Notes under the pieces: generated by a model
What the model saw: the letters and a program-made list of their open reading frames with translations, nothing else
The model's database searches: none
Told to the model about the DNA's origin: nothing
Translations under genes and position numbers: made by a program
Shown: positions 45,822 to 62,015 of the stretch, in pieces
How the letters are laid out: each line of letters opens with the position of its first letter
Position numbering within the stretch: position 1 is the stretch's first letter
Source of the DNA: Clostridiales bacterium
Lineage (GTDB): Bacteria > Bacillota > Clostridia > Christensenellales > Aristaeellaceae
Direction of reading: 5' to 3'
Length of the DNA stretch: 64,000 nucleotides
Assembly (NCBI GenBank): GCA_015056205.1
Contig: SVGS01000007.1
Span: forward strand, 1 to 64,000

Positions 45822-47753
45822 ATGAATGACCGGAAACCCATTGAGCTTTTTGTCCCGGGGCGTCTCTGCCTCTTTGGCGAGCATTCGGACTGGGCCGGTA
45901 TGTACCGTACGGTGAATTCGTCGATTGAAAAAGGCCGTGCCATTGTCTGCGGCACGGAGCAGGGGATTTATGCCCGGGCGGAGCGTGCGGACCGGTTTAT
46001 CATGTGCGGCGAGGAAGAAATTTCGGAGGATGAACACTGGGAGTGTGAAATGGATTCCGCCCGTCTGCTGGAAACGGCGCAGCAGGGCGGCTATTTTTCC
46101 TATGTGGCGGGTGTCGCGTCTTATATTAATGATAATTACAGCGTCGGCGGGGTGAAGATTACGCTCCTTCGCCGGGATCTGCCGCTGAAGAGCGGCCTTT
46201 CCTCCTCGGCGGCGATCTGTGTGCTCGTGGCCCGGGCCTTTAATCAGCTCTATCATCTGCGGATGAATATTAAGGGCGAAATGCAGGCGGCCTTCCGGGG
46301 GGAGCAGCGTACGCCTTCCCGCTGCGGGCGGCTGGATCAGGCCTGTGCCTATGGCGTCAAGCCGGTCCTCATGGAGTTCGATGGAATGGAAATCGATTCC
46401 CATGAGCTCCGGGTGGGAACCACCTTTCATTGGGTGATCGCGAATCTGATGGCCTCCAAGGATACCATTCGGATCCTGGGGGATCTGAATAAGGCCTTTC
46501 CCTTTGCGGAAAATGAAGCGGAGCGCCGGGTGCAGGAAGCCTTCGGCGCGGATAACCAGGCCATTGTCCGCCGGGCGGAAATCTGCCTGCGGGAAGGGGA
46601 TCCGGAAGGCCTGGGCCGCCTGATGGATGAGGCGCAGCGGAATTTTGACCGTAAGGTGATGCCCGCCTGCGAGGAGCTGAAGGCGCCGGTCCTGCATTCC
46701 GTCCTTTCGGATCCGGCCATCCGGCCCTGGATCTGGGGCGCGAAGGGCATTGGCTCCCAGGGGGATGGTTCGGTCCAGTTTCTGGCCCGGAGCGCCGGTG
46801 ATGCCGCCGCGCTTCAGGCGTATCTCCTGAATCAGAGGGGCATGCCCTCCTTTACGCTGACCGTGAAGCCGGGCCAGACGGTGAGAAAGGCGGTCATTCC
46901 CCTGGCCGGTTTCGGTACCCGGGTCTTTCCGGCGACCAAATGTGTGCGAAAATGCTTTATGCCCCTCCTGGATACGGATGGCATCCTGAAGCCCGCCCTG
47001 ATGATCATGATGGAGCGCCTGCTGGAGGCGGGCATTCAGGATATCGCCCTGATTATCGGGGAGGATGAGCAGCCGGAGTTTGATCGTTTCTTCCAGCCGC
47101 TTCCCGAGGCGCATCGGGAAAAGCTCCCCCCGGATAAGCTGAAGTGTGAGGAAAAGATCCTCGAGCTCCGTCGTCATGTAACGTATATTTATCAGTCGGA
47201 GCGCCGGGGCTTTGGCCACGCGGTGTGGCTGGCCCGCCGGTTTTCGGAGGGCGATCCGGTGCTGCTCCTCCTGGGCGATTTTGTTTATCGGTCCAATACC
47301 GGCGTCAGCTGCTGCCGCCAGGTCATTGATGCGTATAAGGAGTGCGGCCGTCCCCTCGTCAGCATCGCGGAAATTCCCCTGGACCAGGTCGTGCATTATG
47401 GCATTCTCCATGGCGTCTGGGATGAGAATGAAACCATGATGAAGGCGGACGTGATGGTGGAAAAGCCGACCGATGATTATGCCCGGGAATATCTGGGGGT
47501 GGAAAATGCCCGGGGCGAGCGCAAGTATTATGCCACCTTCGGCCAGTATGTGCTCACGCCGGAGGTTTTCGAGGAGCTGGAAAAGGAAATCCGTTCCGGT
47601 AAGCCGGCCCATGGCGGAGAATTCGGGCTCACGGAAGCGCTCCAGAAGGTCTGCGAGCAGCAGGGCTTAATTGGATTCGCCCCGGATGGCCGTTCCTTTG
47701 ATATCGGTCTTCCGGAGGCGTATCGGACAACGATGTGGGAATATTGTAAGTAG
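45822..47753 (+). CDS. Fusion of GHMP-type sugar kinase and GalU-like nucleotidyltransferase
   Basis: The N-terminal half (about 1-345) is a GHMP kinase: VPGRLCLFGEHSDWAG, the ATP loop LKSGLSSSAAI, and a third motif GIGSQGDGSVQFL. The C-terminal half (353-643) resembles UTP-glucose-1-phosphate uridylyltransferase: PLAGFGTRVFPATK, RRGFGHAV, LLLGDF, VEKP and FDIGLPEAY. One polypeptide may thus turn a free sugar into the sugar-1-phosphate and then into an NDP-sugar, like the FKP fucose salvage enzyme but with the domains reversed and a GalU-type partner. The sugar is unknown; galactose would feed the Glf enzyme encoded at 62 kb. The gene starts 21 bp after the GT2 gene. Confidence 0.8.
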   Translation: MNDRKPIELFVPGRLCLFGEHSDWAGMYRTVNSSIEKGRAIVCGTEQGIYARAERADRFIMCGEEEISEDEHWECEMDSARLLETAQQGGYFSYVAGVASYINDNYSVGGVKITLLRRDLPLKSGLSSSAAICVLVARAFNQLYHLRMNIKGEMQAAFRGEQRTPSRCGRLDQACAYGVKPVLMEFDGMEIDSHELRVGTTFHWVIANLMASKDTIRILGDLNKAFPFAENEAERRVQEAFGADNQAIVRRAEICLREGDPEGLGRLMDEAQRNFDRKVMPACEELKAPVLHSVLSDPAIRPWIWGAKGIGSQGDGSVQFLARSAGDAAALQAYLLNQRGMPSFTLTVKPGQTVRKAVIPLAGFGTRVFPATKCVRKCFMPLLDTDGILKPALMIMMERLLEAGIQDIALIIGEDEQPEFDRFFQPLPEAHREKLPPDKLKCEEKILELRRHVTYIYQSERRGFGHAVWLARRFSEGDPVLLLLGDFVYRSNTGVSCCRQVIDAYKECGRPLVSIAEIPLDQVVHYGILHGVWDENETMMKADVMVEKPTDDYAREYLGVENARGERKYYATFGQYVLTPEVFEELEKEIRSGKPAHGGEFGLTEALQKVCEQQGLIGFAPDGRSFDIGLPEAYRTTMWEYCK

Positions 47754-47774
47754 AAAATATTCTTGTATGGCAGA

Positions 47775-48815
47775 TCAGGGCCGCGCCGCGGCCTTTTCCG
47801 CCTTTGCCAGCTGCAGGTCGTGCTCCGCCATGATCCGGCAGAGCTCCTCGCAGCTGGTTTTCAGGGGATTCCACCCCAGCTGGGTCTGGGCCTTGGTGGG
47901 GTCCCCCAGCAGGTTAACCACGTCCGTCGGCCGGTACCATTTGGGGTTGACGCATACCACCATTTTGCCGGTCTTTTTGTCGTATCCCTTTTCGTCGGCT
48001 CCCTCGCCCCGCCATTCGATGTCGATCCCGTCATGGGCGAAGGCCAGGGTCGTGAATTCGCGTACGCTGTGCTGCACCCCGGTGGCGATCACGAAGTCAT
48101 CCGGCTCCTCCTGCTGCAGGATCAGCCACATGCATTCGACGTAGTCCTTCGCGTATCCCCAGTCCCGCAGGCTGTCCAGGTTCCCCAGCTCCAGGTGGTC
48201 CTGCAGCCCCATGGCGATGCGCCCTGCCGCTCGGGTGATTTTCCGGGTCACGAAGGTTTCGCCTCGCCGCTCGGATTCGTGGTTGAACAGGATCCCATTG
48301 CAGGCGAACTGCCCGTAGGCTTCCCGGTATTGCTTCACGATCCAGAATCCGTATTGCTTCGCCACCGCGTAGGGGGAGTAGGGGTGAAAGGGCGTGTTCT
48401 CGTTCTGTGGCACTTCCTCCACCTTGCCGTATAGCTCGGAGGTGGAAGCCTGATAAATCCGGCAGCTCCGGTCCAGCCCGGCGTTGTGCACCGCCTCCAG
48501 CAGCCGCAGCACCCCCAGGGCGTCGACGTCCCCGGTGTATTCCGCCGCGTCGAAGGATACGTGCACGTGGCTCTGCGCGGCCAGGTTGTAGATCTCGTCC
48601 GGCCGTACGCTCAGCACGATTTTGGCGATGCTGGAGCTGTCGCTCAGATCCCCCTCGTGCAGGTGCAGCTTTTCCAGGATCGGCTGGATGCGCTGGGTGT
48701 TCGGCAGGGAGCTGCGGCGGATGATGCCGTGCACCTCGTATCCCTTCTCCAGCAGGAATTCGGCCAGAAAGGATCCGTCCTGTCCCGTAATGCCGGTGAT
48801 CAGTGCTTTCTTCAT
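47775..48815 (-). CDS. gmd: GDP-mannose 4,6-dehydratase
   Basis: Gmd makes GDP-4-keto-6-deoxymannose, the precursor of GDP-fucose, GDP-rhamnose and GDP-perosamine. The 346-residue SDR enzyme has the NAD(P) motif [21 protein letters not shown] with IIRRSS, catalytic [20 protein letters not shown] (Ser/Thr) with YAVAKQ (Tyr-x3-Lys). These and [14 protein letters not shown] are Gmd signatures. It is the last gene of the minus-strand group and follows manC by 16 bp. Confidence 0.95.
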
Positions 48816-48831
48816 GCCCTTCTCCTTTGTT

Positions 48832-49908
48832 TTACAGTAGCTCGGTCCGGTTCACCGCCCGCAGGATTTCCACCACGCGCTTGATGTCCCCCGCGCTTTC
48901 CTTGGAGCATACCAGCAGCGCGTCCGGTGTGTCCACGATGATGATGTCCTCCAGGCCGACCATGGCGATGGTCTTCCTGTCCCCCTGAACGATGCACCGG
49001 GTGGAGTTCACGGTCACCACGTCGCCCTTGATCACGTTGCCCATGTCGTTGGTGGGGTTGATGCGCCCCACCGCCAGCCAGGATCCCACGTCGTCCCATC
49101 CGAAGGACGCGGGCAGCACGTATACGTTTTTGCTCCGCTCCATGATCCCGTAGTCCACGGAGATGGATTTCATCCGGATGAACCGGCTTTCGAGAATTTC
49201 CTGCTCCGCCGGGGTGCCGATGGCTGCCTCGATGGCCACCAGTTCCTCGTAGTTTTCCGGCAGGTATTCCTGCATCTCCCGCAGAATGGCGGAGGTTTTC
49301 CATATGAACATTCCGCTGTTCCATAGGTATTCCCCGCCGGCCAGGTACCGCTTGGCGGTCTCCAGATCCGGCTTTTCCGCGAAGTGCTTCACCCGGAAGG
49401 CGCCGTGCCCGCCGGGCAGGCTCTCCGTGTCGAACTGGATGTATCCGTATCCGGTGTTGGGGGAGGAGGGCGGAATCCCCAGGGTCACCAGGGCGTCCGT
49501 TTCCTCGGCCGCGGCGATGGCGTTCCGCAGCACGCTGTGGTACAGCAGGGGCTGCAGCACGATGTGGTCCGAGGGCAGCACCACCATCATGGCGTCCCCG
49601 TATTTTTTCCGCATGGCCACCGCGCCCCATCCGATGCAGGGGGCGGTGTTCTTCGCCTCCGGTTCGCAGAGGATGTTCTCCTCCGGAATCTGGGGCAGCT
49701 GTTTGCGTACCAGCTCCCGGTAGTCCCGGTTGGTGGCGATGAATATGTCCTCCGGGTTCACCATGGGCAGAATCCGGTCCACGGTGCTCTGGATCATGGT
49801 CCGGTCGGAGTTGGTCAGCGTCAGAAACTGCTTCGGAAACCGCTTCCGGCTTTTCGGCCAGAATCGCTCGCCCCGTCCCCCGGCCATGATTAGCGCGGCT
49901 GTCTTCAT
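48832..49908 (-). CDS. manC: Mannose-1-phosphate guanylyltransferase
   Basis: The 358-residue enzyme makes GDP-mannose from mannose 1-phosphate and GTP. The nucleotide-binding motif [20 protein letters not shown] and later [15 protein letters not shown] and NSGMFIWK are typical ManC signatures. It lacks the C-terminal isomerase domain found in bifunctional ManC/RfbM proteins. ATG 49908 overlaps the stop of the glycosyltransferase gene upstream by four bases (ATGA), so they are translationally coupled. With gmd next, it begins the GDP-deoxysugar route. Confidence 0.93.
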
Positions 49909-50636
49909 GCCTGTCCGCCCTTTCTGCTCTTTCCTTCGTATCGGATCCGCATCCAGGTCAGCCGGAAAAGGCTCTTGATGTATCCGATGATGAAGGGAAT
50001 CGTCCGCCTTTTGGATTCGCCGTACCGCCGCAGCTCGAAGGTGATGGGAACCTCGCCGATCTTCAGATCCGGCTTGTTCAGCCGCAGCTTCAGCAGCACC
50101 TCCTGCAGCACGTCGTAGTTCTTGTTCTCCAGCTCCACCCGCTTCAGCTGCTGCGTGTTGTACAGCCGGAAGTCGGTGGAAATGTCGTGGGCCTGAATCC
50201 CCAGGGCGATCCGGAACACGGTGTTCAGGATCTTGCTCATCACGATGTGGCTCTTCAGGTCGTGGTTCTTTCCCCCGGGCACGTATCGCGATCCGATCAC
50301 GATGTCGCAGTTCTCGCCCGTGTATTTCTGATAGATGGCGGGAATGTATTCCGGCCGGTGGGATCCGTCCCCGTCCAGCAGCATGGTCAGATCCCGGTGG
50401 GATTCGGCGATCGCGGTCTTGAAGGCGTCCGCGAATCCCGTCCCCCGTTGGTTGACGTATCGGGCGTTCAGCTTCCGGCATACCTCTTCCGTGTTGTCCA
50501 GCGGTTCCTTCGTGTCGATCACGACGATCTCGTAGTCCGCGCCGATTTTGCCCATCTGCTCATGGATTTCCGGCAGCAGCACCGCCAGGTTTTCCGCCTC
50601 TTTGTAGGCCAGCAGGGATACCGTTACGCTTTTCAT
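49905..50636 (-). CDS. GT2 glycosyltransferase
   Basis: The 243-residue protein has a GT2 core (SVTVSLLAYKEAENLAVLLPE, EIVVIDTKEPLDN, LTMLLDGDGSHRPEY) with no clear membrane helix, like polyprenyl-phosphate glycosyltransferases. It follows the perosamine-synthase-like gene by 17 bp, so it may transfer perosamine or a related sugar. I chose the ATG at 50636; the frame is open further upstream, into the previous gene, but has no ribosome site there. Confidence 0.8.
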   Translation of the reverse strand: MKSVTVSLLAYKEAENLAVLLPEIHEQMGKIGADYEIVVIDTKEPLDNTEEVCRKLNARYVNQRGTGFADAFKTAIAESHRDLTMLLDGDGSHRPEYIPAIYQKYTGENCDIVIGSRYVPGGKNHDLKSHIVMSKILNTVFRIALGIQAHDISTDFRLYNTQQLKRVELENKNYDVLQEVLLKLRLNKPDLKIGEVPITFELRRYGESKRRTIPFIIGYIKSLFRLTWMRIRYEGKSRKGGQA

Positions 50637-50653
50637 GTCTCTTTGTCCGCCTC

Positions 50654-51775
50654 TCAAAACAGCTTCCGCAGTTCCTCCGCCACGTATGCCTGCTGCTCCC
50701 GGGTCAGGCCCAGTCCGCTGGGAATGTAGAATCCGTGGGTGCTGATGTAGTTCGCGTTGGGATACAGGCTGTCCTCCAGGCTCTCCTTCGGGCAGCATCC
50801 CTCCTTCAGCAGGGCGGGCTGTTTATGCATGGGGTAGAAGAAGTGCCGGGTCCCGATCCCCTTCTCCCCCAGTTTTTTCATGATCTCGTCCGCGTTCCGG
50901 TCGGGATCCTTCAGCACGATCCCGAATACCCAGTAGATGTTCTCCGCGTATTCCGTCCGCGGAAGGGGCAGCTGAATCCCGTCGATCCCCTGCAGCGCTT
51001 CCTGGTAGTAGGCGCCGATCTCCCGCTTCCGCTTCACGGTGGTCCCGATCTGCTCCAGCTGGGCCAGCCCCACGGCGGCCTGCATGTTGGTCATGCGAAA
51101 GTTGCTGCCGAATTCGGAGTGAATGTAGCGCCGCTCCGGGTCGAAGAAAAGGTTCCGGGCGCCCCGGGCCCGGTCGCGGACGGCCTCGTCGCTGGTCATG
51201 ATCATGCCGCCTTCCCCGCTGGTGATGTGCTTGTTGGGAAAGAAGCTGAAAATGCTCGCGTCGCCCATCCCGCCGCAGGGCTCCCCGCGGTAGGTCAGCC
51301 CATGGGCTTCCGCCGCGTCCTCGATGATTTTCAGGTTGTGCTTCCGGGCCAGCTCCCGGATGGGGTCCATGTCCGTCGGCAGGCCGTAGATGTGAACCAC
51401 CATGATCGCCCGGGTCTTGTCGGTGATCTTTGCCTCGACCTGGCTCACGTCCATGTTCCATGTGTCCGCCGTGCAGTCGACCGGCACGGGAATCAGCCCG
51501 GCCTTGACGATGGCCTGAACGCAGCTGATGATGGTGAAGTCGGGCAGGATCACCTCTCCGCCCTTTTCCAGGTTCAGGGCCAGCACGGCCGCCTCCAGGG
51601 CGGCGGTCCCGTTGCATACGGCGATGCCGTATTTCTGCCCCGTCAGCTCCGCCATGCCCTGCTCAAATTTCTCGATATAGGCCCCGGCGGAGGAGATCCA
51701 TCCGGTGTCGATGCAGTCCATCAGGTATTTCTTCTCGTTCCCCTGAAATACGGGGGTATTGACTGGTACGTTCAT
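50654..51775 (-). CDS. DegT/DnrJ/EryC1 aminotransferase, probable GDP-perosamine synthase
   Basis: The 373-residue PLP enzyme has the family signature FSFFPNKHITSGEGGM (PLP-binding Lys) and the EDAAEAHGLTYRG segment. The opening VNTPVFQGNEKKYLMDCIDTGWISSAG and the IISC/WNMDV stretch closely resemble known perosamine synthases. With manC and gmd nearby, it should aminate GDP-4-keto-6-deoxymannose to GDP-perosamine. Substrate assignment is by motif and context; other keto-sugar aminotransferases are possible. Confidence 0.82.
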   Translation of the reverse strand: MNVPVNTPVFQGNEKKYLMDCIDTGWISSAGAYIEKFEQGMAELTGQKYGIAVCNGTAALEAAVLALNLEKGGEVILPDFTIISCVQAIVKAGLIPVPVDCTADTWNMDVSQVEAKITDKTRAIMVVHIYGLPTDMDPIRELARKHNLKIIEDAAEAHGLTYRGEPCGGMGDASIFSFFPNKHITSGEGGMIMTSDEAVRDRARGARNLFFDPERRYIHSEFGSNFRMTNMQAAVGLAQLEQIGTTVKRKREIGAYYQEALQGIDGIQLPLPRTEYAENIYWVFGIVLKDPDRNADEIMKKLGEKGIGTRHFFYPMHKQPALLKEGCCPKESLEDSLYPNANYISTHGFYIPSGLGLTREQQAYVAEELRKLF

Positions 51776-51792
51776 GTGTTTTCTTCCCTTCT

Positions 51793-52188
51793 TTAAAACC
51801 GGGTCTTGTCCGCGGGGCCGGGATAGGGCCCCTGCTTGATCTCGACCATCTCCGTGTCCTCGATCATTTTGAATCCGTGCCCGCCGGAAAACAGCGTCAC
51901 GATATCCCCGGCCTTCATCCGGAAGCTGTGGATAATCTCCCGGTTTTCGTATAGGTCGACCTGCATGATGCCCTTGCGCATCACCAGCGTCTCGCAGGTA
52001 TAGTCGATCGTCCGCGGGTTGGGGTTGTGGTAGTGGCGCTGAATCTCGTGCCCCGCCGGGTGCCCCATAAAGGCGACCTGCTGCGGGTCTTCGTCCCGGG
52101 TGAAAAACTCGATCCCCGTTACGGAGTGCTCCGCGGGGATGACCAGGGCCATCACGTTGCCCTTGCTGTCGCGGTAGGTGTTCGTCAT
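51793..52188 (-). CDS. Cupin-fold protein
   Basis: The 131-residue protein has a cupin signature: HRHYHNPNPRTIDYT-like His pair (EIQRHYHNPN) and the second motif MKAGDIVTLFSGGHGFKM. It may be a sugar-binding or sugar-modifying protein, since similar small cupins occur in nucleotide-sugar operons. It is the first gene of the group cupin, aminotransferase, GT2, manC, gmd. AAAGGAG lies eight bases before the ATG. The function is not established. Confidence 0.65.
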   Translation of the reverse strand: MTNTYRDSKGNVMALVIPAEHSVTGIEFFTRDEDPQQVAFMGHPAGHEIQRHYHNPNPRTIDYTCETLVMRKGIMQVDLYENREIIHSFRMKAGDIVTLFSGGHGFKMIEDTEMVEIKQGPYPGPADKTRF

Positions 52189-52306
52189 ATCCGGACTCCT
52201 TTTCGGATCAGTGTTCTTTCGCGCGGCCGTCTGCCGCCCGCGGGCCGGTCCTGTCTCGTGGAATCATATCCTGCAAACGGATTGTGCCTGAAACCGCCCA
52301 ATCCTT

Positions 52307-52336
52307 AGCATATCACAAAGTATAGGAAAAATACAA
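52307..52336 (-). promoter_or_regulatory. Promoter of the GDP-sugar operon
   Basis: On the minus strand: -35 TTGTAT (52331-52336), 18-bp spacer, -10 TATGCT (52307-52312). It lies in the 150-bp gap between the fusion gene and the cupin gene. Confidence 0.55.
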
Positions 52337-52338
52337 CC

Positions 52339-55098
52339 TCAGGGCTGGGTCTCGATGGTCCATTTCTCCCGGTTGAGTACCTCGTCCCCCTCCAGGGTCA
52401 GAGAAATGGGATCGGTAAAGGTGTTCCCGGTGTTCTTTTCCGCGTGCCAGTCCGCCTGCAGTATGTGGTGAATCGGATCCTTCTTTGCCTCGTTGCTCAT
52501 GTTGACGTCCAGGAAGGGGTTCCGGGGCTCCTTCACGATGCCGTCGAAGGCCAGGAAGGGGGTGTCCGCGTTGGTCATGAAGGTGTTGTCGGTCCGGATT
52601 TCCCCGCTGTCCCCGAAGTCCTTGACCATCAGCAGCGGGTTGTAGATCATGGCGTCGGTCCATTCGTCCGGATCGTTTCTCCGCAGCTCCATGTCGAAGA
52701 ATCCCAGGCTGAATCCGTGGTCCGATACGATGATGATCCGCGTGTTGTCGTATACCCCGTTCTCCCGCAGATAGTCCATCCACACCCCCAGTTGCAGGAA
52801 GGCGGTCATGTCGGATGTGTAGTGCTCCTCCTGGTTGTCGTTGGTGATGCGGATCGTCCGCCCGTCCCATGCGGTCTTGACCCGGTGCTCCTCGTTGTAG
52901 GTGGATTCCGGATCGCGGATTTCCGGGTCGTATGCGGGCCCCTGCACGGAGATGACGTCGTGCATCGTGTCGTTGGTGAACATGAGGAAGGTGTTCTGCC
53001 CCTCGTCCGTGATCCGGGTCATGTAGCTCATGTTTTTCAGTGCCAGATAGGCGTTCACGAAGCTGCCGCGCAGCCCGTTCAGCCCCTTCGCGCCGATGTG
53101 GTTCTCCACGTCCGTCTCGTTGTATTTTCCGCTGTCGTACAGCAGGGTCTGCAGCGCGACGGGGGCGCTCCGGGTCAGGCTGTAGCAGAACAGGTTCCGC
53201 TGCCGGATCCGGTCCTCCCGCTCATGGATGGCGTCCCCGTATTCGAGGAAGGAGTGCCCGGTGTTGTAGGTGTGGATCTCCGGATATTCGTCGTAGATCT
53301 CCAGCGAGGGGATCCAGGTATAGTTGGCATAGGGCGGATCGCATACCGTCACGTTGTATTTCTCGTTCAGAAAGTTGAGGGGCATGATTTTCAGCGCCTC
53401 GTTGTGCTTCGTGACCAGCGGCGTGTCCGTCCGGGCCTCAATCTTCTCCGGTAGATATTCGTATCCGCCGAAGAGCGCCGGGGCTCCGACCAGGGTGTGC
53501 GCGCCGTAGGACAGGGTGTTGGGGTACCAGGTGAAGCCCTCGAACTGCTTTTTGAGCTCCGGCTTCTCCTCGAATAGGAAGGGCACGAAGGAGCCGATCC
53601 CCCGGTCCATCATGATCACGACCACGTTCTTTCCGCTTTTGTCCAGGGCGAAGCTGGGCTTTTCCCGGGAGTTCCGCAGCGAGGCAACCTGGATGTTCTG
53701 ATATTCGCTGTGAATATTCACCATGTTGATCCCGGAAAGCACGCACAGGGCGATCATCCCGGCGGCCATCACGGCGTTCAGAATCTTCCGGTTCTTTCGG
53801 AAAAGGAAGATCATCGCCCCGGCGATCAGGATCAGCGCGCCGGTGTTCAGCAGCAGCCCCTTGCCCCGGATCTGGATGGGCAGGTCGTATTTCAGCAGGG
53901 AGGACAGGTTCCCGTATTCCTTCCCGAAGAACATGAAGGTGATGGTGCACCCCAGGGCGGCGATGGCGAAAATCAGGCTGACCCGGGCCCGCTTTTCCCG
54001 GGCGGTCAGGTACCGGAATACGCCCCCCCATACGCAGAAGGTCCCGAATCCCATTGCCCCGGACCACAGCAGATAGCGGATGGGGTTCGCCGGATGGGAA
54101 GAGTCGATGAATTCCGCCACGGAGGCTTTCACTACGGCGGAGGGAATCAGCAGTCCGGTCAGCACGGAAAGCAGGATCGCGCTGCACCAGAATAGGCCCT
54201 TTTCCTCCCGGATGTTCCGGGCGGCAGCCGGCCGGGGGCGAAGCCGGCCTTCCTTTTCCTTTTTGCCGATGAGAATTTCGCGGATCAGGGGAATCTGCAG
54301 CGCCAGGGCGGCGGCTACGGCCGCCGCCTGCCGCGCGAAGCCGTTCAGGGGCCGCACCGCGGTGAAGAAAATGCCGAGGATGATCCCCGCCAGGGAGAAG
54401 AAAACCCACAGCACCATCCGGGGCTTCTTCAGCCGCGCGGCGCAGTTCTTGACCAGGGAGAACAGGTTGTTCAGCGTCCAGTAGAACACGAGCCCCGCCG
54501 GCGAGTTGTACAGAAGCACCAGGAAGAGTAGCGCCATGCCGTACAGCTGGATTTTGCTCCGGATCGGCATCCCCTTGGTGTAGATGGCGCCGGATACGAT
54601 GTTGATCCCGGTCATCAGGATGGGCAGCAGGTTGATGCTCATCCCGGCGATCTTCAGCATGCCGTCCGGGGCGCCGAGGTCGGCGATGGGCCCGAAGGAA
54701 ACCCCCTGCAGAATCTGCAGCCCGCTCAGAAAGTTGTAGGCCGCGATGAAAAAGGGAATCTCCAGCAGCAGGGATATGCTGCCCTTCAGCGCGTGCCAGG
54801 GCTTGTAGTGGTTCTGGCGGTAGTAGGTCTGCTGCATCATTACCCGCTCGTCGCCCTTGAATACCTTCCGGATGTGGGCCAGGCCGGGGGCCATCTTTTC
54901 GGACTGCCGCCGCTCCTCGTCCTGCACGGCGTCCGCCCGCCGGTATAGCGGCAGCACCAGCAGGTTGACCACCAGGCTCAGCACGATGATGGTCAGCCCG
55001 GGGTTCTGCAGGATTGCCAGCGCCAGGCAGAATATGGTGTCGAACAGCAGGTGCAGGGGACCGATGATCATCTGGTAAAGAAAGTCGAAGAAGCTCAT
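52339..55098 (-). CDS. Fusion of YidC/Oxa1-like domain and sulfatase/LTA-synthase-like domain
   Basis: The 919-residue protein starts with a YidC/Oxa1-type domain (1-225): GLTIIVLSLVVNLLVLPLYR, LEIPFFIAAYNFLSG and NSPAGLVFYWTLNNLFSLV. Several further membrane helices follow (230-460). The C-terminal part (about 485-919) is an alkaline-phosphatase-superfamily domain with metal-binding Asp498 (VIMMDRG), a possible nucleophile Thr535 in SYGAHTLVGA, and Asp793-His794 in VSDHGFS. The conserved Arg of the YidC groove is Asn45 here. The frame overlaps the glycerophosphotransferase-like gene by four bases, so the pair may build or modify a glycerol-phosphate-type polymer. The outer position of the phosphatase fold resembles LTA synthase. 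Confidence 0.8.
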   Translation of the reverse strand: MSFFDFLYQMIIGPLHLLFDTIFCLALAILQNPGLTIIVLSLVVNLLVLPLYRRADAVQDEERRQSEKMAPGLAHIRKVFKGDERVMMQQTYYRQNHYKPWHALKGSISLLLEIPFFIAAYNFLSGLQILQGVSFGPIADLGAPDGMLKIAGMSINLLPILMTGINIVSGAIYTKGMPIRSKIQLYGMALLFLVLLYNSPAGLVFYWTLNNLFSLVKNCAARLKKPRMVLWVFFSLAGIILGIFFTAVRPLNGFARQAAAVAAALALQIPLIREILIGKKEKEGRLRPRPAAARNIREEKGLFWCSAILLSVLTGLLIPSAVVKASVAEFIDSSHPANPIRYLLWSGAMGFGTFCVWGGVFRYLTAREKRARVSLIFAIAALGCTITFMFFGKEYGNLSSLLKYDLPIQIRGKGLLLNTGALILIAGAMIFLFRKNRKILNAVMAAGMIALCVLSGINMVNIHSEYQNIQVASLRNSREKPSFALDKSGKNVVVIMMDRGIGSFVPFLFEEKPELKKQFEGFTWYPNTLSYGAHTLVGAPALFGGYEYLPEKIEARTDTPLVTKHNEALKIMPLNFLNEKYNVTVCDPPYANYTWIPSLEIYDEYPEIHTYNTGHSFLEYGDAIHEREDRIRQRNLFCYSLTRSAPVALQTLLYDSGKYNETDVENHIGAKGLNGLRGSFVNAYLALKNMSYMTRITDEGQNTFLMFTNDTMHDVISVQGPAYDPEIRDPESTYNEEHRVKTAWDGRTIRITNDNQEEHYTSDMTAFLQLGVWMDYLRENGVYDNTRIIIVSDHGFSLGFFDMELRRNDPDEWTDAMIYNPLLMVKDFGDSGEIRTDNTFMTNADTPFLAFDGIVKEPRNPFLDVNMSNEAKKDPIHHILQADWHAEKNTGNTFTDPISLTLEGDEVLNREKWTIETQP

Positions 55099-56354
55099 TT
55101 TTCTCCCTCCCCGCTGTTTTTCTTGTTAGAATGCAGGCGGTCCCGGGTGCGGATCAGATAGTCTGCGATGGCCTCCACGGACTTTCCGGGGTTGGCCCAG
55201 GCCTGCTGCCGGGCCAGCTCCCGCCCGGCCTTCAGCTCCGGCGCCTGCAGGGCGTCCTCGATCACCCGGCCGATCTCCCCGATCTTCTCCTCCGTCAGCG
55301 GCACGCCGATCTTCGGCAGAATCTCGAAGTTCCACATCTCCTCCTTCAGCCACCAGGCGTCGTATACCCCCTTGTCGAAGGATACGTCCGCGTAGATCAC
55401 CGGCCGGTCGAATACCAGCGCGAAGTCGAATACCACGCCGGAATAGTCGGAAATCAGCACATCCGACCGGCGCAGCGCCTCGAAGTTGTCGTTGTCAAAG
55501 TTCCATTCGATCTGTTCCCCGTCCGGATAGGCCGCCCGCAGCCGGTCGATCATCTCTTTTTCGGATGTCATGGATTGGGGATGGGGCCGGATGATGATGG
55601 TATTTCCGGTCCGGATCAGGCTCTCGATCATGCGCTCGCCGTATCGGTTAAAGATGCTGTTGCTTCCCCAGGAGGGCGCCAGCAGGATCGTCCGCTTCCC
55701 GTCCTCGCGCGGGCAGCTTCCCGCCTTCGCCAGCTTTTCGGCCAGGTCGTCCAGCTGGGGCAGCCCCACGAGCACGGCCTCCTTCTCGGGCAGTCCCCGC
55801 AGCTTTTCCAGCGCCCGTATTTCCCGGATCTGGAATTCCCCGTTGACCAGCACGGCGTCGTAGTAATCGGTCCCGAACATCCGGTATCCGGTAATGTCGT
55901 TGGCGGCGTGCATCACATGCGCGTACCATTTCACGTCCCGGGACCGCTTCCATTGGTATACGTCGAGCCCCGGCGTGCTGGAAAGCACCACGTCCGCCCG
56001 CAGAAAGTTCATCCGGGCGAAGGCCTTGTTCCCCTCTCCGGCGAATTCGGTCTTGACGTATTGATATCTTTCCCCCAGCAGGGGATCGTCCGCCGAGGCG
56101 GTCAGATACAGCGCCGCCTGCTGCCGTTTTTCCATTTCGTCGCATAGCGGCTTGAAGATGGCCTGATAGCGTTTGCTGTCGGTGAAAAACACGATGGGCT
56201 CCCGGGCCTTTTCGCCTTTTTGCTGTTTTCCGCCGCTGGCCATGAACCGGATTTTCACCAGCACGTTCCGAAAGGCGTAGATCAGTACCCCCAGGATGCT
56301 GATCAGGATGGTGAAGAGCATGCTCCCCGTACCGGGATCGATGTACAAACGCAT
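55095..56354 (-). CDS. CDP-glycerol glycerophosphotransferase-like protein
   Basis: The 419-residue protein begins with a membrane helix (MLFTILISILGVLIYAF) and has a GT-B-like TagF domain: IIIRPHPQ and SDYSGVVFDFALVFDRPVIY match the TagB/TagF family that polymerises glycerol or ribitol phosphate. TagF proper is larger (over 700 residues), so this may be a shorter TagB-like priming enzyme or act on another polyol. It is the first gene of the group that includes the YidC-sulfatase fusion; the reading frames overlap. No tagD-like gene for CDP-glycerol is seen in the window. Confidence 0.82.
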   Translation of the reverse strand: MRLYIDPGTGSMLFTILISILGVLIYAFRNVLVKIRFMASGGKQQKGEKAREPIVFFTDSKRYQAIFKPLCDEMEKRQQAALYLTASADDPLLGERYQYVKTEFAGEGNKAFARMNFLRADVVLSSTPGLDVYQWKRSRDVKWYAHVMHAANDITGYRMFGTDYYDAVLVNGEFQIREIRALEKLRGLPEKEAVLVGLPQLDDLAEKLAKAGSCPREDGKRTILLAPSWGSNSIFNRYGERMIESLIRTGNTIIIRPHPQSMTSEKEMIDRLRAAYPDGEQIEWNFDNDNFEALRRSDVLISDYSGVVFDFALVFDRPVIYADVSFDKGVYDAWWLKEEMWNFEILPKIGVPLTEEKIGEIGRVIEDALQAPELKAGRELARQQAWANPGKSVEAIADYLIRTRDRLHSNKKNSGEGEK

Positions 56355-56449
56355 GGAAAAAATCTCCTTGTCAGTTAGCTGATGTCAGCGGATTTCGTCT
56401 GTCCGGCCAAAAGGAAATAAACCTGTCGGCTGTCCAGGCGTCGATATGG

Positions 56450-56479
56450 ATTATATTCTGGATCATAGAAGCTTGTCAA
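56450..56479 (-). promoter_or_regulatory. Promoter of the glycerophosphotransferase/fusion operon
   Basis: On the minus strand: perfect -35 TTGACA (56474-56479), 18-bp spacer, perfect -10 TATAAT (56450-56455). The leader is about 90 nt. A second TTGACA-like element lies 15 bp further upstream. Confidence 0.8.
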
Positions 56480-56528
56480 TCGAACCCTGTCAATCATTTC
56501 CATGGCTCTGTTTTTTTTCCGGGTTCTG

Positions 56529-56537
56529 TGGTATGCT
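56529..56537 (+). promoter_or_regulatory. Putative extended -10 promoter of the dTDP-sugar operon
   Basis: TGGTATGCT is an extended -10 with hexamer at 56532-56537, about 40 bp before the rfbC start. No good -35 is visible. Confidence 0.45.
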
Positions 56538-56578
56538 GAAGGGCAGAAAGCAGGTTGATCTCGGAGGGAGGAGTTGCT

Positions 56579-57193
56579 GTGGGTCAGATCACGGTGGAGC
56601 GGGATGTGGATGGAATCCGCGGCCTGTGTGTTATTACGCCGGCCGTGCATGGGGACAGCCGGGGTTATTTTATGGAAACCTATCATCAGCGGGATATGGA
56701 GGAGGCCGGGCTGAACCTCACCTTTGTCCAGCATAATCAGTCGGGCAGCGTCAAGGGCGTCCTTCGCGGCCTGCATTATCAGAAGCGCTTTCCCCAGTCG
56801 AAGCTGGTCCGGGTCATCCGCGGTGCGGTTTATGATGTGGCGGTGGATCTGCGCCGGGACAGCCCCACCTTCGGCCGGCATCACGGTGAGCTCCTTTCGG
56901 AGGAAAACCGCCGCCAGTTCCTGATCCCCCGGGGCTTTGCCCATGGCTTCCTCGTGCTCAGCGACCGGGCGGAGTTCTGTTATCTCTGCGATGATTTTTA
57001 TCATCCGAATGATGAGGCCGGCCTGGCCTGGAATGATCCGGCCCTGGGCATCGCCTGGCCGGGGCTGGAGGGCGATTATCATGGCTCCCCCTCCGCGGAG
57101 GGCTACCGGGTGGAGGGCGTTCCCCTGATTCTCTCGGAAAAGGATCAGCATTGGCCGCCGCTGCGGGAGGCCCCGGTGTTTGATCTCCCCTGA
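56579..57193 (+). CDS. rfbC: dTDP-4-dehydrorhamnose 3,5-epimerase
   Basis: The 204-residue RmlC-type cupin epimerises dTDP-4-keto-6-deoxyglucose on the way to dTDP-rhamnose. It has PAVHGDSRGYFMETYHQ, VQHNQSGSVKGVLRGLHYQ (catalytic His), and the SPTFGRHHGELLS and GFAHGFLVLSDRAEFCY parts. The GTG at 56579 is preceded by GGAGGGAGGAG. rmlA, rmlB and rmlD are not in the window, so they must be elsewhere if rhamnose is made. It heads an operon of deoxy-amino-sugar enzymes. Confidence 0.92.
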   Translation: MGQITVERDVDGIRGLCVITPAVHGDSRGYFMETYHQRDMEEAGLNLTFVQHNQSGSVKGVLRGLHYQKRFPQSKLVRVIRGAVYDVAVDLRRDSPTFGRHHGELLSEENRRQFLIPRGFAHGFLVLSDRAEFCYLCDDFYHPNDEAGLAWNDPALGIAWPGLEGDYHGSPSAEGYRVEGVPLILSEKDQHWPPLREAPVFDLP

Positions 57194-57250
57194 CCGGGTG
57201 CGGGATCCGGATCGTCTGAATTCTGAATTTTTGTGTATTGGGAGATTGTC

Positions 57251-57703
57251 ATGCAAATTCAGTTCCTCGATTTTCAGCCCCATGGGGATGACCGGGGCCA
57301 GCTGATTGCCCTGGAGGAAGGAAAGGAAATCCCCTTTCCGATCCGCCGGGTTTATTATGTGTATGCCACCACGCCGGAGGCGGTGCGGGGCCGGCATGCC
57401 CATCGTTCCCTGCGCCAGGTGCTGGTCTGCGTCCATGGCTCCTGCCGGGTTCGGTTGGATGACGGCCGGGAGCGGTGTGAAGTCCTGCTGGATTCACCCC
57501 GGCGGGGGCTGGAGATCGATGGTCTCCTCTGGCGGGAAATCGATCATTTCTCCCCGGATGCCGTCCTGATGGTCTTGGCTTCGGAACTCTATGATGAAAG
57601 CGATTATATCCGGGATTATCAGGCCTTCCGCGCCCTCGCGGAGGAAGCTTGGAAAGAAAAAGAGTTGGGAGAAAAAGAATTCGGAGAGGAGGAGCGCCCG
57701 TGA
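57251..57703 (+). CDS. dTDP-4-keto-6-deoxyglucose 3,4-ketoisomerase (FdtA/QdtA-like)
   Basis: The 150-residue cupin matches the WxcM-like/FdtA family: [37 protein letters not shown] and [19 protein letters not shown]. These enzymes move the keto group from C4 to C3, so that FdtB-type aminotransferases can make 3-amino sugars; the next gene encodes one. Whether the product leads to Fuc3N or Qui3N cannot be read. The C-terminal tail is Glu/Lys-rich. GGGAG precedes the ATG at 57251. The stop overlaps the next GTG start. Confidence 0.82.
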
Positions 57704-58812
57704 CGGTTCCCTTTGTTTCCTTTCGGCCTCTGGAGCGGGAGTTGGACGCGGATCTGCGAGCGGCCTTTGACCGGGTGTACCGCCGCTCCTGGTATATCGG
57801 CGGTGAGGAGGACGCGGCCTTTGAGCGGGCCTTTGCCGCCTTCTGCGGCGTCCGCTGCTGCGTGGGGGTCGGTAACGGCCTCGACGCCCTCATGCTGATC
57901 CTGAAGGCCCTGGGCATCGGTCCGGGCGATGAGGTGATCGTCCCCTCGAATACGTATATCGCCACCGCCCTGGCGGTCACCTATGCCGGCGCCCGGCCGG
58001 TGCTGGTGGAGCCGGTCCCGGATACCTTTAATCTGGATCCGGACAGGATCGAGGCGGCCCTTTCCCCCCGTACGAAGGCCCTCCTCCCGGTGCATCTTTA
58101 TGGCCAGGCCTGCGATATGGATGCGGTCATGGCCGTGGCGGACCGCCATGGCCTCCCGGTGGTGGAGGATTGTGCCCAGGCCCACGGCGCCTCCTGGCGG
58201 GGAAAGCGGGTGGGCTCCTTCGGGGTCGCCGCCGGCTTTTCCTTTTATCCGGGTAAGAATCTCGGGGCCCTGGGGGATGCCGGCGCCGTGGTTACGGATG
58301 ATCCGGCCCTGGCGGAAAAGGTTCGGGCCTTGGGCAATTATGGCTCGCTGGAGAAGTATCATCATTTATATAAGGGGCATAATTCCCGCCTGGATGAGCT
58401 CCAGGCGGCCTTCCTCCTGGCGAAGCTGCCCCTTCTGCCCCGGATCGGCGCCGATCGCCGCGCCGCCGCGGATCGTTATCTGCGGGAAATCCGCCATCCG
58501 GAGGTGCGCCTCCCGGTCGTCCGGCCGGAGGCGGAGCCGGTGTGGCATATCTTTGCCGTTCGCTGCGCCCGCAGGCAGGCGCTGGAGCGCCATCTGGCCT
58601 CCTGCGGCATTCAGACCGGCCGCCATTATCCGGTCCCGATCCATCGCCAGCCCTGCTATGGGGATCTGAATCTGCCGGAGGGGTCCCTCCCGATCGCGGA
58701 GGAAATCAGCCGCACGGAGCTTTCCCTGCCCATGTATTATGGCATGACCCCGGAGGAAATCGGGGCGGTGGTGGCCGCGGTGAACAGCTTCCCGGCGGAG
58801 GGGGCCTTATGA
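57700..58812 (+). CDS. dTDP-3-amino-3,6-dideoxysugar aminotransferase (FdtB/QdtB-like)
   Basis: The 370-residue DegT-family PLP enzyme starts [19 protein letters not shown] and has [45 protein letters not shown] and the PLP-Lys region [16 protein letters not shown]. This is the profile of FdtB/QdtB, which aminate 3-keto-6-deoxy sugars. The GTG start (57700) overlaps the FdtA-like stop (GTGA) and has GGAGGAG upstream. With the preceding isomerase it would make dTDP-Fuc3N or dTDP-Qui3N. Confidence 0.87.
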
Positions 58813-59324
58813 GGCTGCGTCCGCTGGAGCTCCGGGATGCCGGGGCGATGCTCTCCTGGATGCATGATCCGGAGGTCACGTCTCTCCTTTCCGCGAATTT
58901 TGCGGCGAAAACCCTGGAGGACTGCCGGGCCTTTATCGCCTCGGCCGCGCGGCCCGGTCCCGCGCTGCACTGGGCGATCGCGGATGATGGGGATGAATAT
59001 ATGGGCACGGTCAGCCTCAAGGCGGTGGATCCGGCCCGGGGCACGGCGGAGTTCGCCATTGCCACCCGGCGGGAGGCCTGGGGTCGGGGCTTCGCGGCCT
59101 TCGCGATCCGGGAAACGCTGCGCTTTGCCTTCCGGGATCTGGGGCTCTCGGTGGTTTATTGGTATGTGAACCGGGAAAATGCCCGGGCCGTTCGTTTTTA
59201 TCAAAAACAGGGGTTTGCGCCGCTGCCGGCTCCCCCCTCCGTCGCCCCTCCCGCCCTCGCGCGGGATGCCCGGATGGTGTGGTTCCTGGCGTCCGCCCCC
59301 GTCGGGGAGGATGCGCATGCCTGA
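58809..59324 (+). CDS. GNAT family acetyltransferase, likely amino-sugar N-acetyltransferase
   Basis: The 171-residue protein has a RimJ/RimL-like GNAT fold: [42 protein letters not shown] (acetyl-CoA loop) and [17 protein letters not shown]. The ATGA overlap with the aminotransferase gene and the operon context suggest that it acetylates the 3-amino group of the dTDP-sugar. Known FdtC/QdtC enzymes for this step use a different (left-handed beta-helix) fold, so this would be a replacement, as WecD is for 4-amino sugars. The end is Pro-rich. It overlaps the next gene by eight bases. Confidence 0.75.
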
Positions 59325-60408
59325 GATCAGTGTGGTGGTCCCGGTCTATCGGGGGGAGCGGACGCTGGAGCGGTGCGTGGAAAGCATCCTCGCCCAGACC
59401 TTTGCGGATTTTGAGCTGATCCTCGTGGAGGATGGCTCCCCGGATGCCAGCGGCCGGCTCTGTGATGCCCTCGCCGCCCGGGATTCGCGGATCCGCGTCC
59501 TGCATCAGCCGAACCGGGGCGCGGCGGCGGCCCGTCAGGCCGGGCTTCTCGCGGCCACCGGCGAATCGGTCATCTTTCCGGATTGCGATGACTGGCTGGA
59601 TCCGGATATGCTGGCCCTCCTGCGCCGGGGAATGGCGGATACGGGGGCGGATGTTGTCGCCGTCGGCTTCTGGAAGGAGGAGGAGGGCAAGCCCCCGCTC
59701 CCCTGCGCCAATGCGATCCCTCCCGGGGTGGTGGATCTGCGGGACAGGCGCTCCCCCGAAGCCGCCGCTTTTGCGCGCCGGGCGCTCTATACCGGCTCCT
59801 TTTATACGCCGGGCATCGTTCCCGCCCTCTGGTGTAAGCTGATCCGGCGCTCTCTCCTCCTGTCCCTGCCGTCTCTGCCCCCGGATCTGCGCATGGGGGA
59901 TGACGCGGCGGTAACCTATCCGGCCTTGGCCCGGGCGTCCCGGGTGGCGGTGCTGACGAATGCCTTTCCCTATCATTACCGGGTGTCTCCCGCCTCCCTT
60001 TCGAATGCCTGGGATCCGGATTATCTGCCCCGGGCGGAATCCCTCTTCCGCGCGTTGCGGGAGGGGCTGGCCCCCTGTCCGCCCATGGCGGAATCCCTGA
60101 CCTATTATGCGCTCTTCATCCTGCAGCAGGGGATCGATCGTTTTCTTTTTTTTAATCGCCGGGCTCCCCGGGAGGAAAAAAGGAAGATGATTCTCCGGTT
60201 TGTTCGTGCGCTGGAGCCCCTTTTCCCCACTTCCCGGGATGGCAGTTCTCCTCCCTCCCTGGAATCTCGCTTCGACTGGTCCGGCTTTTCCGCGGAGGAT
60301 CAGGCCCTGCTCCGGCCTTTTTGTCGTCGGGATACGGACGCGGTGATTTCGCTCCTTGCGAAACGCCGTTTTTCTGCTAAAATAAGGTCGGTGCTGCGCC
60401 CCAAATAA
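59317..60408 (+). CDS. GT2 glycosyltransferase
   Basis: The 363-residue protein has an N-terminal GT2 domain: [49 protein letters not shown] and the metal site PDCDDWLDPD. The C-terminal 130 residues are of unknown fold, with several Arg-rich helices. It should transfer one of the sugars made in the operon to a lipid-linked intermediate. ATG 59317 has GGGGAGG six bases upstream and overlaps the acetyltransferase stop. Confidence 0.82.
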   Translation: MPEISVVVPVYRGERTLERCVESILAQTFADFELILVEDGSPDASGRLCDALAARDSRIRVLHQPNRGAAAARQAGLLAATGESVIFPDCDDWLDPDMLALLRRGMADTGADVVAVGFWKEEEGKPPLPCANAIPPGVVDLRDRRSPEAAAFARRALYTGSFYTPGIVPALWCKLIRRSLLLSLPSLPPDLRMGDDAAVTYPALARASRVAVLTNAFPYHYRVSPASLSNAWDPDYLPRAESLFRALREGLAPCPPMAESLTYYALFILQQGIDRFLFFNRRAPREEKRKMILRFVRALEPLFPTSRDGSSPPSLESRFDWSGFSAEDQALLRPFCRRDTDAVISLLAKRRFSAKIRSVLRPK

Positions 60409-60443
60409 GGGGCGCTCCGGCGCCGGAGAGGGCGGGATCAGTC

Positions 60444-62015
60444 ATGTCGGTGTTTAACCGGGCCTCTCGTACGAAAAATGCCATGAAGACCTCCGTGGCC
60501 GGGGTGGCTGTTAATCTCTGCAAGATTTTGCTGGGTTTCGGTTACCGCAGCCTGTTTTTGATGATCCTTTCGGAAACCTATCTGGGTATTAACGGCCTCT
60601 TTACCAGTATTCTGCAGGTGCTCTCCCTGGCGGAGCTGGGCATTTCCACGGCGATCGTCTATCGGTTTTATGATCCGATCAACCGGGAGGATGTGCAGTA
60701 TGTCGGTATGCTGATGAATTTCTTCCGCCGGGTTTACGGGGTCATCGCCGGGGTGATTCTGGCCCTGGGGCTGGCCGTCATGCCCTTTATTCATCTCCTG
60801 ATCCGGAACGCCTCGGAGGTCCCGCCGGATGTCAATCTCTATGTCGTTTATCTCCTCTTCCTCCTGAATACCCTCTCCACCTATCTCTTTACCTATAAGC
60901 TCACCCTCCTCACGGCGGACCAGCGGAATTACTGGTTCTCCCTGGCGGATCTGGCGGCTACCCTCGCGCGCTATGTGTCCCAGATCGTCGTCCTCCTCCT
61001 GACCCGTAATTTTACGCTCACCCTGGGCGTGGGCATCGGCCTGGTCCTTCTGGTGAATTATGCCTTCTCCCGCTGGGTCACCGCGCAGTATCGCCCGGTG
61101 TTCCGGGTGCGGGAAATGCTCCCGAAGGAGGAGCGCGGCCGGATTTACCGGGATACCCGCGCGGTCATGTATCATAAGGTGGGCGCCACGGTTCTCGTCT
61201 CCACGGATAACGCGGTCCTGACCCGCATGGTTTCCCTCGCCGCCACCGGCATTTATTCGAATTATGCCATGATCCTGCAGTATATCCAGATTCTGATCGG
61301 CCAGTTCCTGGGCAATTTTACCCCCAGCGTCGGTAACGCGAGGCAGAATATGACCCGGGAGGCGTATTATGCCCTCTTCCGGAAGATGGTGTTTCTGGGG
61401 CTCTGGGTGGCGTCGGTGGTCACGGTCTGCTGTTATGCGGCCATCGATGATCTGATCGCCGTCTGGCTGGGGCCGAAGTATATGTTTCAGGGGTGGACCA
61501 CCCCGGTCCTTTGTCTCCAGCTGTTTATGACGGTTTCCCGCTCTGTGAACGGAGCCTTTATCACCGCGGACGGTCTTTTTGTCAAGGACCGGATCCGCCC
61601 CCTGATTGAGTCCGCCCTGAATCTGGGTATTTCGATCGTGCTCACCCGCTGGCTGGGTATCACCGGCGTCTTTCTGGGCACGGTGATCTCCACGGGGCTC
61701 ACGGCCCAGTGGCGGGAACCCCTGCTGATGTATCGTTTTGCCTTTCGCCGCCGGGTACGGGAATACTGGTTCCGCTATGGCGCCTTTGCCGCGCTGACCC
61801 TGGCCCTGTCCGCTGGGGTGGGGTTCCTGAAGTCCCGCCTGGCCTGGACCCCCGGCTGGGCCCTGCTCCTGGCGGAAACGGCGGCCGCCTTTCTGCTGGT
61901 GAACGGCGTCCTGATCCTGCTCTTCCGCCGGGCGGAGGAATATCAATATCTGAAACAGCTGGCCGGCCGGGGGCTCGCCCGGCTGCGCCGGTCGGGAGGA
62001 GGAATCCCGCGTTGA
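60444..62015 (+). CDS. Oligosaccharide flippase (Wzx/PST-type)
   Basis: The 523-residue membrane protein has about 12-14 hydrophobic helices and the MATE/Wzx-like opening TSVAGVAVNLCKILLGFGYRSLF, with ETYLGINGLFTSILQVLSLAELG. Such proteins flip polyprenyl-linked oligosaccharide repeats across the membrane for Wzy-type polymerisation. No wzy-like gene was recognised in the window. The stop overlaps the TTG start of glf. Confidence 0.85.
   Translation: MSVFNRASRTKNAMKTSVAGVAVNLCKILLGFGYRSLFLMILSETYLGINGLFTSILQVLSLAELGISTAIVYRFYDPINREDVQYVGMLMNFFRRVYGVIAGVILALGLAVMPFIHLLIRNASEVPPDVNLYVVYLLFLLNTLSTYLFTYKLTLLTADQRNYWFSLADLAATLARYVSQIVVLLLTRNFTLTLGVGIGLVLLVNYAFSRWVTAQYRPVFRVREMLPKEERGRIYRDTRAVMYHKVGATVLVSTDNAVLTRMVSLAATGIYSNYAMILQYIQILIGQFLGNFTPSVGNARQNMTREAYYALFRKMVFLGLWVASVVTVCCYAAIDDLIAVWLGPKYMFQGWTTPVLCLQLFMTVSRSVNGAFITADGLFVKDRIRPLIESALNLGISIVLTRWLGITGVFLGTVISTGLTAQWREPLLMYRFAFRRRVREYWFRYGAFAALTLALSAGVGFLKSRLAWTPGWALLLAETAAAFLLVNGVLILLFRRAEEYQYLKQLAGRGLARLRRSGGGIPR

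Follow-up and report, generated by a model that had tools for sequence, protein, structure and literature searches.

A two-gene unit in a stretch of Clostridiales bacterium DNA (assembly GCA_015056205.1, contig SVGS01000007.1, positions 1 to 64,000; the whole 64,000-nucleotide stretch is called the window here) encodes a YidC/Oxa1 domain fused to an outer enzyme of the alkaline phosphatase (AP) superfamily, together with a TagF-like transferase. Relatives carry the three domains as a set, in either of two interchangeable fusions: a TagF-like protein with a YidC-AP fusion (architecture A, found in the window), or a YidC-TagF fusion with a separate AP protein (architecture B). Donor-synthesis genes adjoin part of both architectures, and the gene set is probably associated with phospho- or phosphono-decoration. 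That the pair is a three-part machine which adds phospho- or phosphono-headgroups to exported surface glycans, by way of a full lipid relay, seems to us an evenly balanced proposition. More tentatively, we suggest that the YidC/Oxa1 domain may have become a dedicated lipid-headgroup flippase or channel in an undescribed class of machine, in which the TagF-like enzyme makes a lipid-linked donor and the AP domain uses it outside; such a machine would fill the missing transfer steps of aminoethylphosphonate (AEP) decoration and of LicD-less phosphocholine decoration in Clostridia.

The YidC-AP fusion and its TagF-like partner

The features of the pair are as follows; the roles of the AP residues are assigned by family knowledge.

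52339..55098, minus strand: YidC-AP fusion gene (architecture A), 919 aa, a single intact gene
54424..55098, minus strand: YidC/Oxa1 domain, residues 1-225 (Pfam 60KD_IMP; PDB YidC profile, E 1.6e-11; AF2 helices)
54964..54966, minus strand: Asn45, at the YidC groove-Arg position (alignment to YidC structures; Asn in 110/115 relatives)
54214..54423, minus strand: helix-bearing linker, residues 226-295 (AF2; alignment)
53671..54213, minus strand: five-helix membrane part of the EptA/LtaS-like unit, residues 296-476 (AF2; Foldseek)
52342..53640, minus strand: outer AP superfamily domain, residues 487-919
53605..53607, minus strand: Asp498, presumed metal ligand (115/115)
53494..53496, minus strand: Thr535, presumed nucleophile (115/115)
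52960..52962, minus strand: His713, presumed substrate His (115/115)
52717..52722, minus strand: Asp793-His794, presumed metal ligands (115/115)
55095..56354, minus strand: TagF-like transferase, 419 aa, an N-terminal helix followed by a GT-B fold
56322..56345, minus strand: N-terminal YIDPGTGS motif of the TagF-like protein (Y4-G10 the same in all 34 sequences compared)
55095..55098, minus strand: four-base overlap of the TagF-like gene with the fusion start (the same -4 spacing recurs at other loci)

The fusion runs from the YidC/Oxa1 domain (residues 1-225) through extra helices to a five-helix and AP unit like that of EptA, LtaS and PbgA (residues ∼296-919). An earlier note, made from the letters of the window, had described this 919-residue joining of YidC/Oxa1 to a domain like that of lipoteichoic acid synthase, and had placed the stop of the TagF-like gene four bases inside its start. 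The note is borne out: the fusion is one intact gene, and the overlap lies at 55095..55098. The frameshift or assembly error that the note held out as a refutation was rejected because many homologues keep the same full-length layout.

The YidC domain is predicted (AF2) to form five transmembrane helices and a cytosolic hairpin. It scores 83 bits against PF02096, over the cut-off of 35, and falls marginally below the cut-off of TIGR03592 (83.7 versus 84.3). A structure search with the fusion gave no YidC chain among the matches listed, which AP-domain matches fill, so the assignment rests on profiles. Five-helix fold, hairpin and 60KD_IMP match are shared with the YidC/Oxa1/Alb3 insertase family; the differences are an Asn in place of the groove Arg in architecture A, and a subfamily found only in long frames. 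Among 391 genomes of the class, 27/27 listed copies of this subfamily sit in frames of 847 to 943 aa, and at that threshold the domain is never alone. A YidC tree separates architecture A, architecture B and ordinary YidC into three clades; since it is unrooted, it fits one recruitment as well as two. A tblastn search of plasmid records matched 12 records, each at YidC residues 28-219 only.

Residue 45 aligns with an Arg of solved YidC structures, which we take to be the groove Arg. Across 115 fusions (117 less 2 duplicates) it is Asn in 110, Cys in two with a shrunken YidC part (L037 and L038), Ser in two, and missing from one truncated row. Architecture-A fusions thus do not carry the Arg or Lys of ordinary YidC proteins from the same bacterial family, where the residue is Arg in 11 and Lys in 3 (14/14 positive, leaving out a fifteenth row, L013, identified as architecture B). 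The departure from Arg that the earlier note had seen in the window is therefore the norm among relatives. The YidC part is the most conserved of four regions compared (mean 0.71; the AP domain has 0.62), and all 115/115 fusions keep D498, T535, H713, D793 and H794; both halves are therefore strongly constrained. The linker is largely absent from certain relatives, L035 among them.

Foldseek matched the membrane part and AP domain together to EptA (5fgn) and PbgA (6v8q and 6xlp); the 6xlp alignment starts at residue 295, with a high root mean square deviation (13.5) across both domains. Predicted helices at 296-476 precede an AP fold with Thr at the nucleophile place and Asp and His at the metal ligands. 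Outer enzymes of the EptA/LtaS type take headgroups from lipids, and Thr at this place is as in the transferases of the superfamily. The five-helix part and outer domain with conserved Thr, Asp and His liken the unit to EptA, LtaS and PbgA (YejM), from which the fusion differs by its N-terminal YidC domain, its recurring TagF partner, and the phosphocholine or AEP donor genes near part of its loci. It is very improbable that the AP domain is instead a hydrolase trimming headgroups from lipid or glycan, given the match to the EptA/PbgA architecture, the Thr in every fusion and the synthesis genes that its gene adjoins.

The TagF-like protein scores over the cut-off of the Glyphos_transf profile and has a GT-B fold with RPHP and SD.SG motifs, all as in TagF and TarL, which its fold matches; profile matches to Cps3D and TarL are weak and cover the C-terminal half. 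Enzymes of the TagF family use cytidine diphosphate (CDP)-alcohols as donors, and TagF and TarL themselves act on polymers. The partner differs from these in being small and single-domain, preceded either by the YIDPGTGS helix, of which the pattern was found in 72/75 TagF-like partners, or by a YidC domain. It is probably not a polymerase.

A seven-row profile, run against a species-genome collection, picked up at least 570 stretches encoding a relative, not all of which need carry YidC because both scan patterns fall in the AP domain. From these the top 79 loci were retained. Most match nearly the entire query, and they are titled mostly as rumen or gut Clostridia, with single loci under the titles Schwartzia, Solobacterium and Eggerthellaceae. 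One full pair (L056) lies on a contig titled Eggerthellaceae (Actinomycetota), for which transfer and binning error are both possible. Pairing was counted in 86 loci, a set that includes the window and still holds L041, a repeat of L033, as well as L075, overlapping L060. The TagF-like gene is present in 72; in 69 of them no more than 250 bp separate it from a fusion on the same strand, and there it lies upstream in 46 and downstream in 23; because the best 79 loci were kept, this rate applies to close relatives. The pair of the earlier note thus recurs. This recurrence and the conserved non-Arg at residue 45 are the two outcomes which the note had named as favoring a new function.

We also drew 391 genomes evenly from the class, a sample less biased than the locus scan; scoring covered 4 or 7 candidates per genome, which makes copy numbers lower bounds. 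The TagF-like gene occurs in 11 genomes and the YidC subfamily in 12, all 11 inside the 12. There are 18 TagF copies, 14 read in context (the window and L118-L129) and 4 (two in G234, one each in G409 and G460) placed by coordinates against the YidC listing. Fifteen directly adjoin a fusion (on the opposite strand in G409), 2 lie 4 to 5 kb from one (G307, and one of the two in G284, with AEP genes between), and 1 (G000:C22) has none.

At least two near-full-length fusions occur in 24 loci, 20 of which show one TagF (two of the 24 overlap). One lipid donor common to several outer enzymes would explain a single TagF with several fusions. In the 20.8 kb stretch L077, a single TagF-like gene is surrounded by six near-full-length fusion paralogues and two fragments that overlap.

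A second arrangement of the same three domains

Genomes of the window's genus include some in which the YidC part of the AP protein is shrunken (L037 and L038) and a 635-residue protein with YidC ahead of TagF is present instead. A profile of such YidC-TagF fusions found 30 copies in 29/250 genomes of the family; on Pfam scans, 60KD_IMP was found in 4/4 and Glyphos_transf in 3/4 of the proteins scanned. In 19/30 there is an AP gene no more than 1 kb away, in the same orientation. Three AP neighbors (L193, L204 and L216) exceed the Pfam Sulfatase cut-off, one strongly, and a fourth (L161) is just below it. Catalytic residues agree with those of the fusion in 24/25 YidC-less AP proteins, a set that includes 5 from loci not adjoining a YidC-TagF gene. 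Within the window's genus, 5/5 genomes with the shrunken form (G066, G132, G552, G574 and G613) carry YidC-TagF versus 2/8 with the intact fusion, a trade-off that is suggestive only, because the genomes are relatives.

With this second architecture and its nearby AP gene, YidC, TagF and AP look like three parts of one machine. YidC switches host, between the inner and the outer enzyme, and the set stays together; of all the signs that YidC works for the pathway itself, this is the strongest. The groove residue in architecture B is Lys in 29 and Arg in 1 of the 30, and loss of the groove Arg is therefore not required for the role proposed here.

A different reading makes the YidC domain a built-in insertase or chaperone that folds the polytopic AP enzyme or its partner, leaving the chemistry to TagF and AP. 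The preserved fold and cytosolic hairpin would suit it, as would the higher conservation of YidC residues relative to the AP domain. We consider it unlikely: architecture B fuses YidC to TagF, for which, as a soluble-type enzyme, no insertion step is expected; architecture A has lost the groove Arg; and the window's genome has an ordinary YidC too.

Several loci of the second kind show variants. L195 (8984-11473) holds an architecture-A-type AP protein in which no YidC part is recognizable; its gene adjoins a YidC-TagF gene, and it may be an evolutionary intermediate between the two architectures. Pfam at E 0.001 named no family in this protein or in that of L037, both of the shrunken-YidC kind, and their kinship rests on our own profile and alignment. 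At L169 (3296-5302), an AP paralogue that has lost the catalytic Asp, Thr and His residues lies beside an intact copy and is likely a pseudoenzyme. Architecture-B AP proteins of L204 (7802-9790, by Pfam) and, judged by eye, of neighbors in L201-L209 combine PG_binding_1 repeats with a signal-like start, which hints at a cell-wall acceptor. A YIDP-type motif, reminiscent of the YIDPGTGS beginning of architecture-A TagF, occurs near the N terminus of some architecture-B AP proteins (L215 and L216 by pattern, L194 by eye); that it is a module moving to the AP partner was considered and is not relied on, as the pattern holds in two loci only.

Donor-synthesis genes and a proposed route

Clustering of neighboring genes brought out a choline-type group (kinase, EamA transporter and cytidylyltransferase) and AEP genes. 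Choline-type (LicA/B/C-like) or AEP-type genes lie within 8 kb of 35/89 architecture-A TagF genes, and of 9/30 architecture-B genes. Phosphoenolpyruvate (PEP) mutase is near 10/89 TagF genes, where its frequency in the 391 genomes would predict roughly 0.05. The AEP enzymes of L051 are confirmed by Pfam and exceed the cut-offs of NCBIfam equivalog models: PEP mutase (PepM) with 406.6 bits (cut-off 319.55), phosphonopyruvate decarboxylase (Ppd) with 471 (312.5) and AEP aminotransferase (PhnW) with 447.3 (360.8). Among solved structures, L048 proteins match CTP:phosphocholine cytidylyltransferase (LicC-like, E 7.6e-35), choline kinase (LicA-like, E 9.1e-43, with a choline/ethanolamine kinase family protein slightly better) and LicB (LicB-like, E 2.8e-28). 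In a compact example, L123, the order is fusion, TagF, PntC-like, PhnW, PepM and Ppd. The choline and AEP labels each switch at least 8 times when placed on a quickly made TagF tree, so the link to donor genes has been gained or lost repeatedly. At L051 (13962-15257, Schwartzia) the PEP mutase is itself fused to a CTP_transf_like domain; fusions of this type are reported for other Ppm proteins in the available text of PMC6697681.

Part of the relatives' pairs lie near the same kinds of donor-synthesis genes as in the Lic (LicA/B/C/D) and Pnt systems. From these neighbors, the donor of the TagF-like enzyme in relatives may be CDP-choline or CMP-AEP. The Lic system differs in its transferase: LicD-like genes were found in 1/17 choline loci, in the stretches read (L124, one of 18 so labeled, is left out), so another transferase may act there, a role that the TagF/fusion pair appears to fill. 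TagF could also replace LicD more directly, acting on intracellular glycan repeats in the manner of LicD, with YidC-AP performing a separate step outside, such as the transfer of phosphoglycerol from phosphatidylglycerol. The fold match to the polymer-acting TagF and TarL is in keeping with this. It would leave unexplained both the movement of YidC between TagF and AP and the close co-occurrence of TagF with the fusion, and we give it a low probability.

In the lipid relay that we propose instead as the simplest account, the membrane-anchored TagF-like enzyme would load a headgroup from a CDP or cytidine monophosphate (CMP) donor onto a lipid of the inner membrane face; the donor could be CDP-choline, CMP-AEP or, in the window's genome, some CDP-alcohol. 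The YidC domain, its fold kept and its groove altered, would carry the lipid headgroup across the membrane. The EptA-like AP domain, to judge from its fold and conserved residues, would then transfer the headgroup to an acceptor glycan outside. The Gtr-type three-component modification of glycans (GtrA/GtrB/GtrC) follows the same logic of an inner-face lipid donor, a flippase and an outer transferase; its protein families are unrelated, and the machine proposed here would move a phospho-headgroup instead of a sugar.

Reuse of the insertase fold for lipid carriage or translocation, as the earlier note had supposed, is favored mainly on account of the YidC-TagF architecture and of the lipid scrambling that E. 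coli YidC performs in liposomes in vitro (PMC10491306). The product named in that note, a polymer of glycerol-phosphate type, was not supported. A lipoteichoic-acid-like synthase of this kind would fit the resemblance of the AP unit to LtaS and the name of the TagF family, and is quite improbable: the recognized neighboring donor genes are of choline or AEP type, and no glycerol-3-phosphate cytidylyltransferase over cut-off was found in the window's genome. The best TIGR01518 match there, 56 bits against a cut-off of 165, falls in a frame whose sequence reads as HldE-like; it was the only sign of a CDP-glycerol supply.

Several results weigh against the relay. The lipid intermediate, its passage and the acceptor are parts that we infer, and YidC could have a role in assembly instead of lipid passage. 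No choline- or AEP-type donor gene lies within 8 kb of 54/89 TagF genes, and no AP gene within 1 kb of 11/30 YidC-TagF genes; 14/86 loci show no TagF in the stretch read, some of them being short contigs. No NCBIfam model over cut-off names the scanned LicC- and LicA-like proteins, and the "PntC-like" protein, so labeled for its position amid AEP genes, has a better match to LicC (E 2.1e-27) than to PntC (6.2e-10) when compared with solved structures. Co-occurrence of PEP mutase with TagF at the genome level (8/11 TagF genomes versus 23/380 others; Fisher, 8.8e-8) is confounded by one genus, outside which it stands at 3/4. Neither PEP mutase nor choline kinase was detected in the window's own genome, the assembly of which is 91% complete. 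That genome also has a second, solo TagF-like gene on another contig (L118 9814-11298; G000:C22:45811-47040), with no fusion recognized in the 20 kb read.

The earlier note knew of no described system with this layout. The parts are known singly; we found the whole layout in no paper of the literature searched, in which subscription papers were mostly absent. In the available text of a study of nucleotidyl activation by the Pnt system, the steps leading to phosphonyl modification or tailoring are stated to be unknown, and a term search of that text did not find YidC, insertase, sulfatase, TagF or glycerophosphotransferase (PMC6697681). The pair is a concrete candidate for this step, from CMP-activated AEP to the surface glycan. 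It may also be a natural case of a YidC-family fold doing something besides protein insertion, which bears on the in vitro lipid scrambling by insertases described in the part of PMC10491306 available. The results suggest an undescribed way of attaching charged groups to surface sugars in some gut and rumen Clostridia. With relatives in many contigs from such bacteria, the decoration may be widespread, hidden under plain annotations as YidC, sulfatase or teichoic acid enzymes, within the limit set by the even class sample, where only 12/391 genomes qualify.

The window's genome and the surrounding locus

A cytidylyltransferase of LicC or PntC type was also sought in the window's genome; there were six NTP_transf_3 matches, none of them good against LicC- or PntC-like queries. 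Outside the window on the same contig, another glycan locus (L139 12118-13786; G000:C21 ∼116-118 kb) has a LicD gene adjoining an IspD-family cytidylyltransferase, and the latter may supply the donor in this genome.

The pair itself sits in a larger locus.

45822..62015, unstranded: surface-polysaccharide locus around the pair (GDP-mannose dehydratase, DegT aminotransferase, dTDP-sugar isomerase, FdtA and others)

At one end of this locus, window positions 45822-47753 encode a 643-aa protein in which Pfam recognizes a GHMP kinase joined to an NTP transferase.

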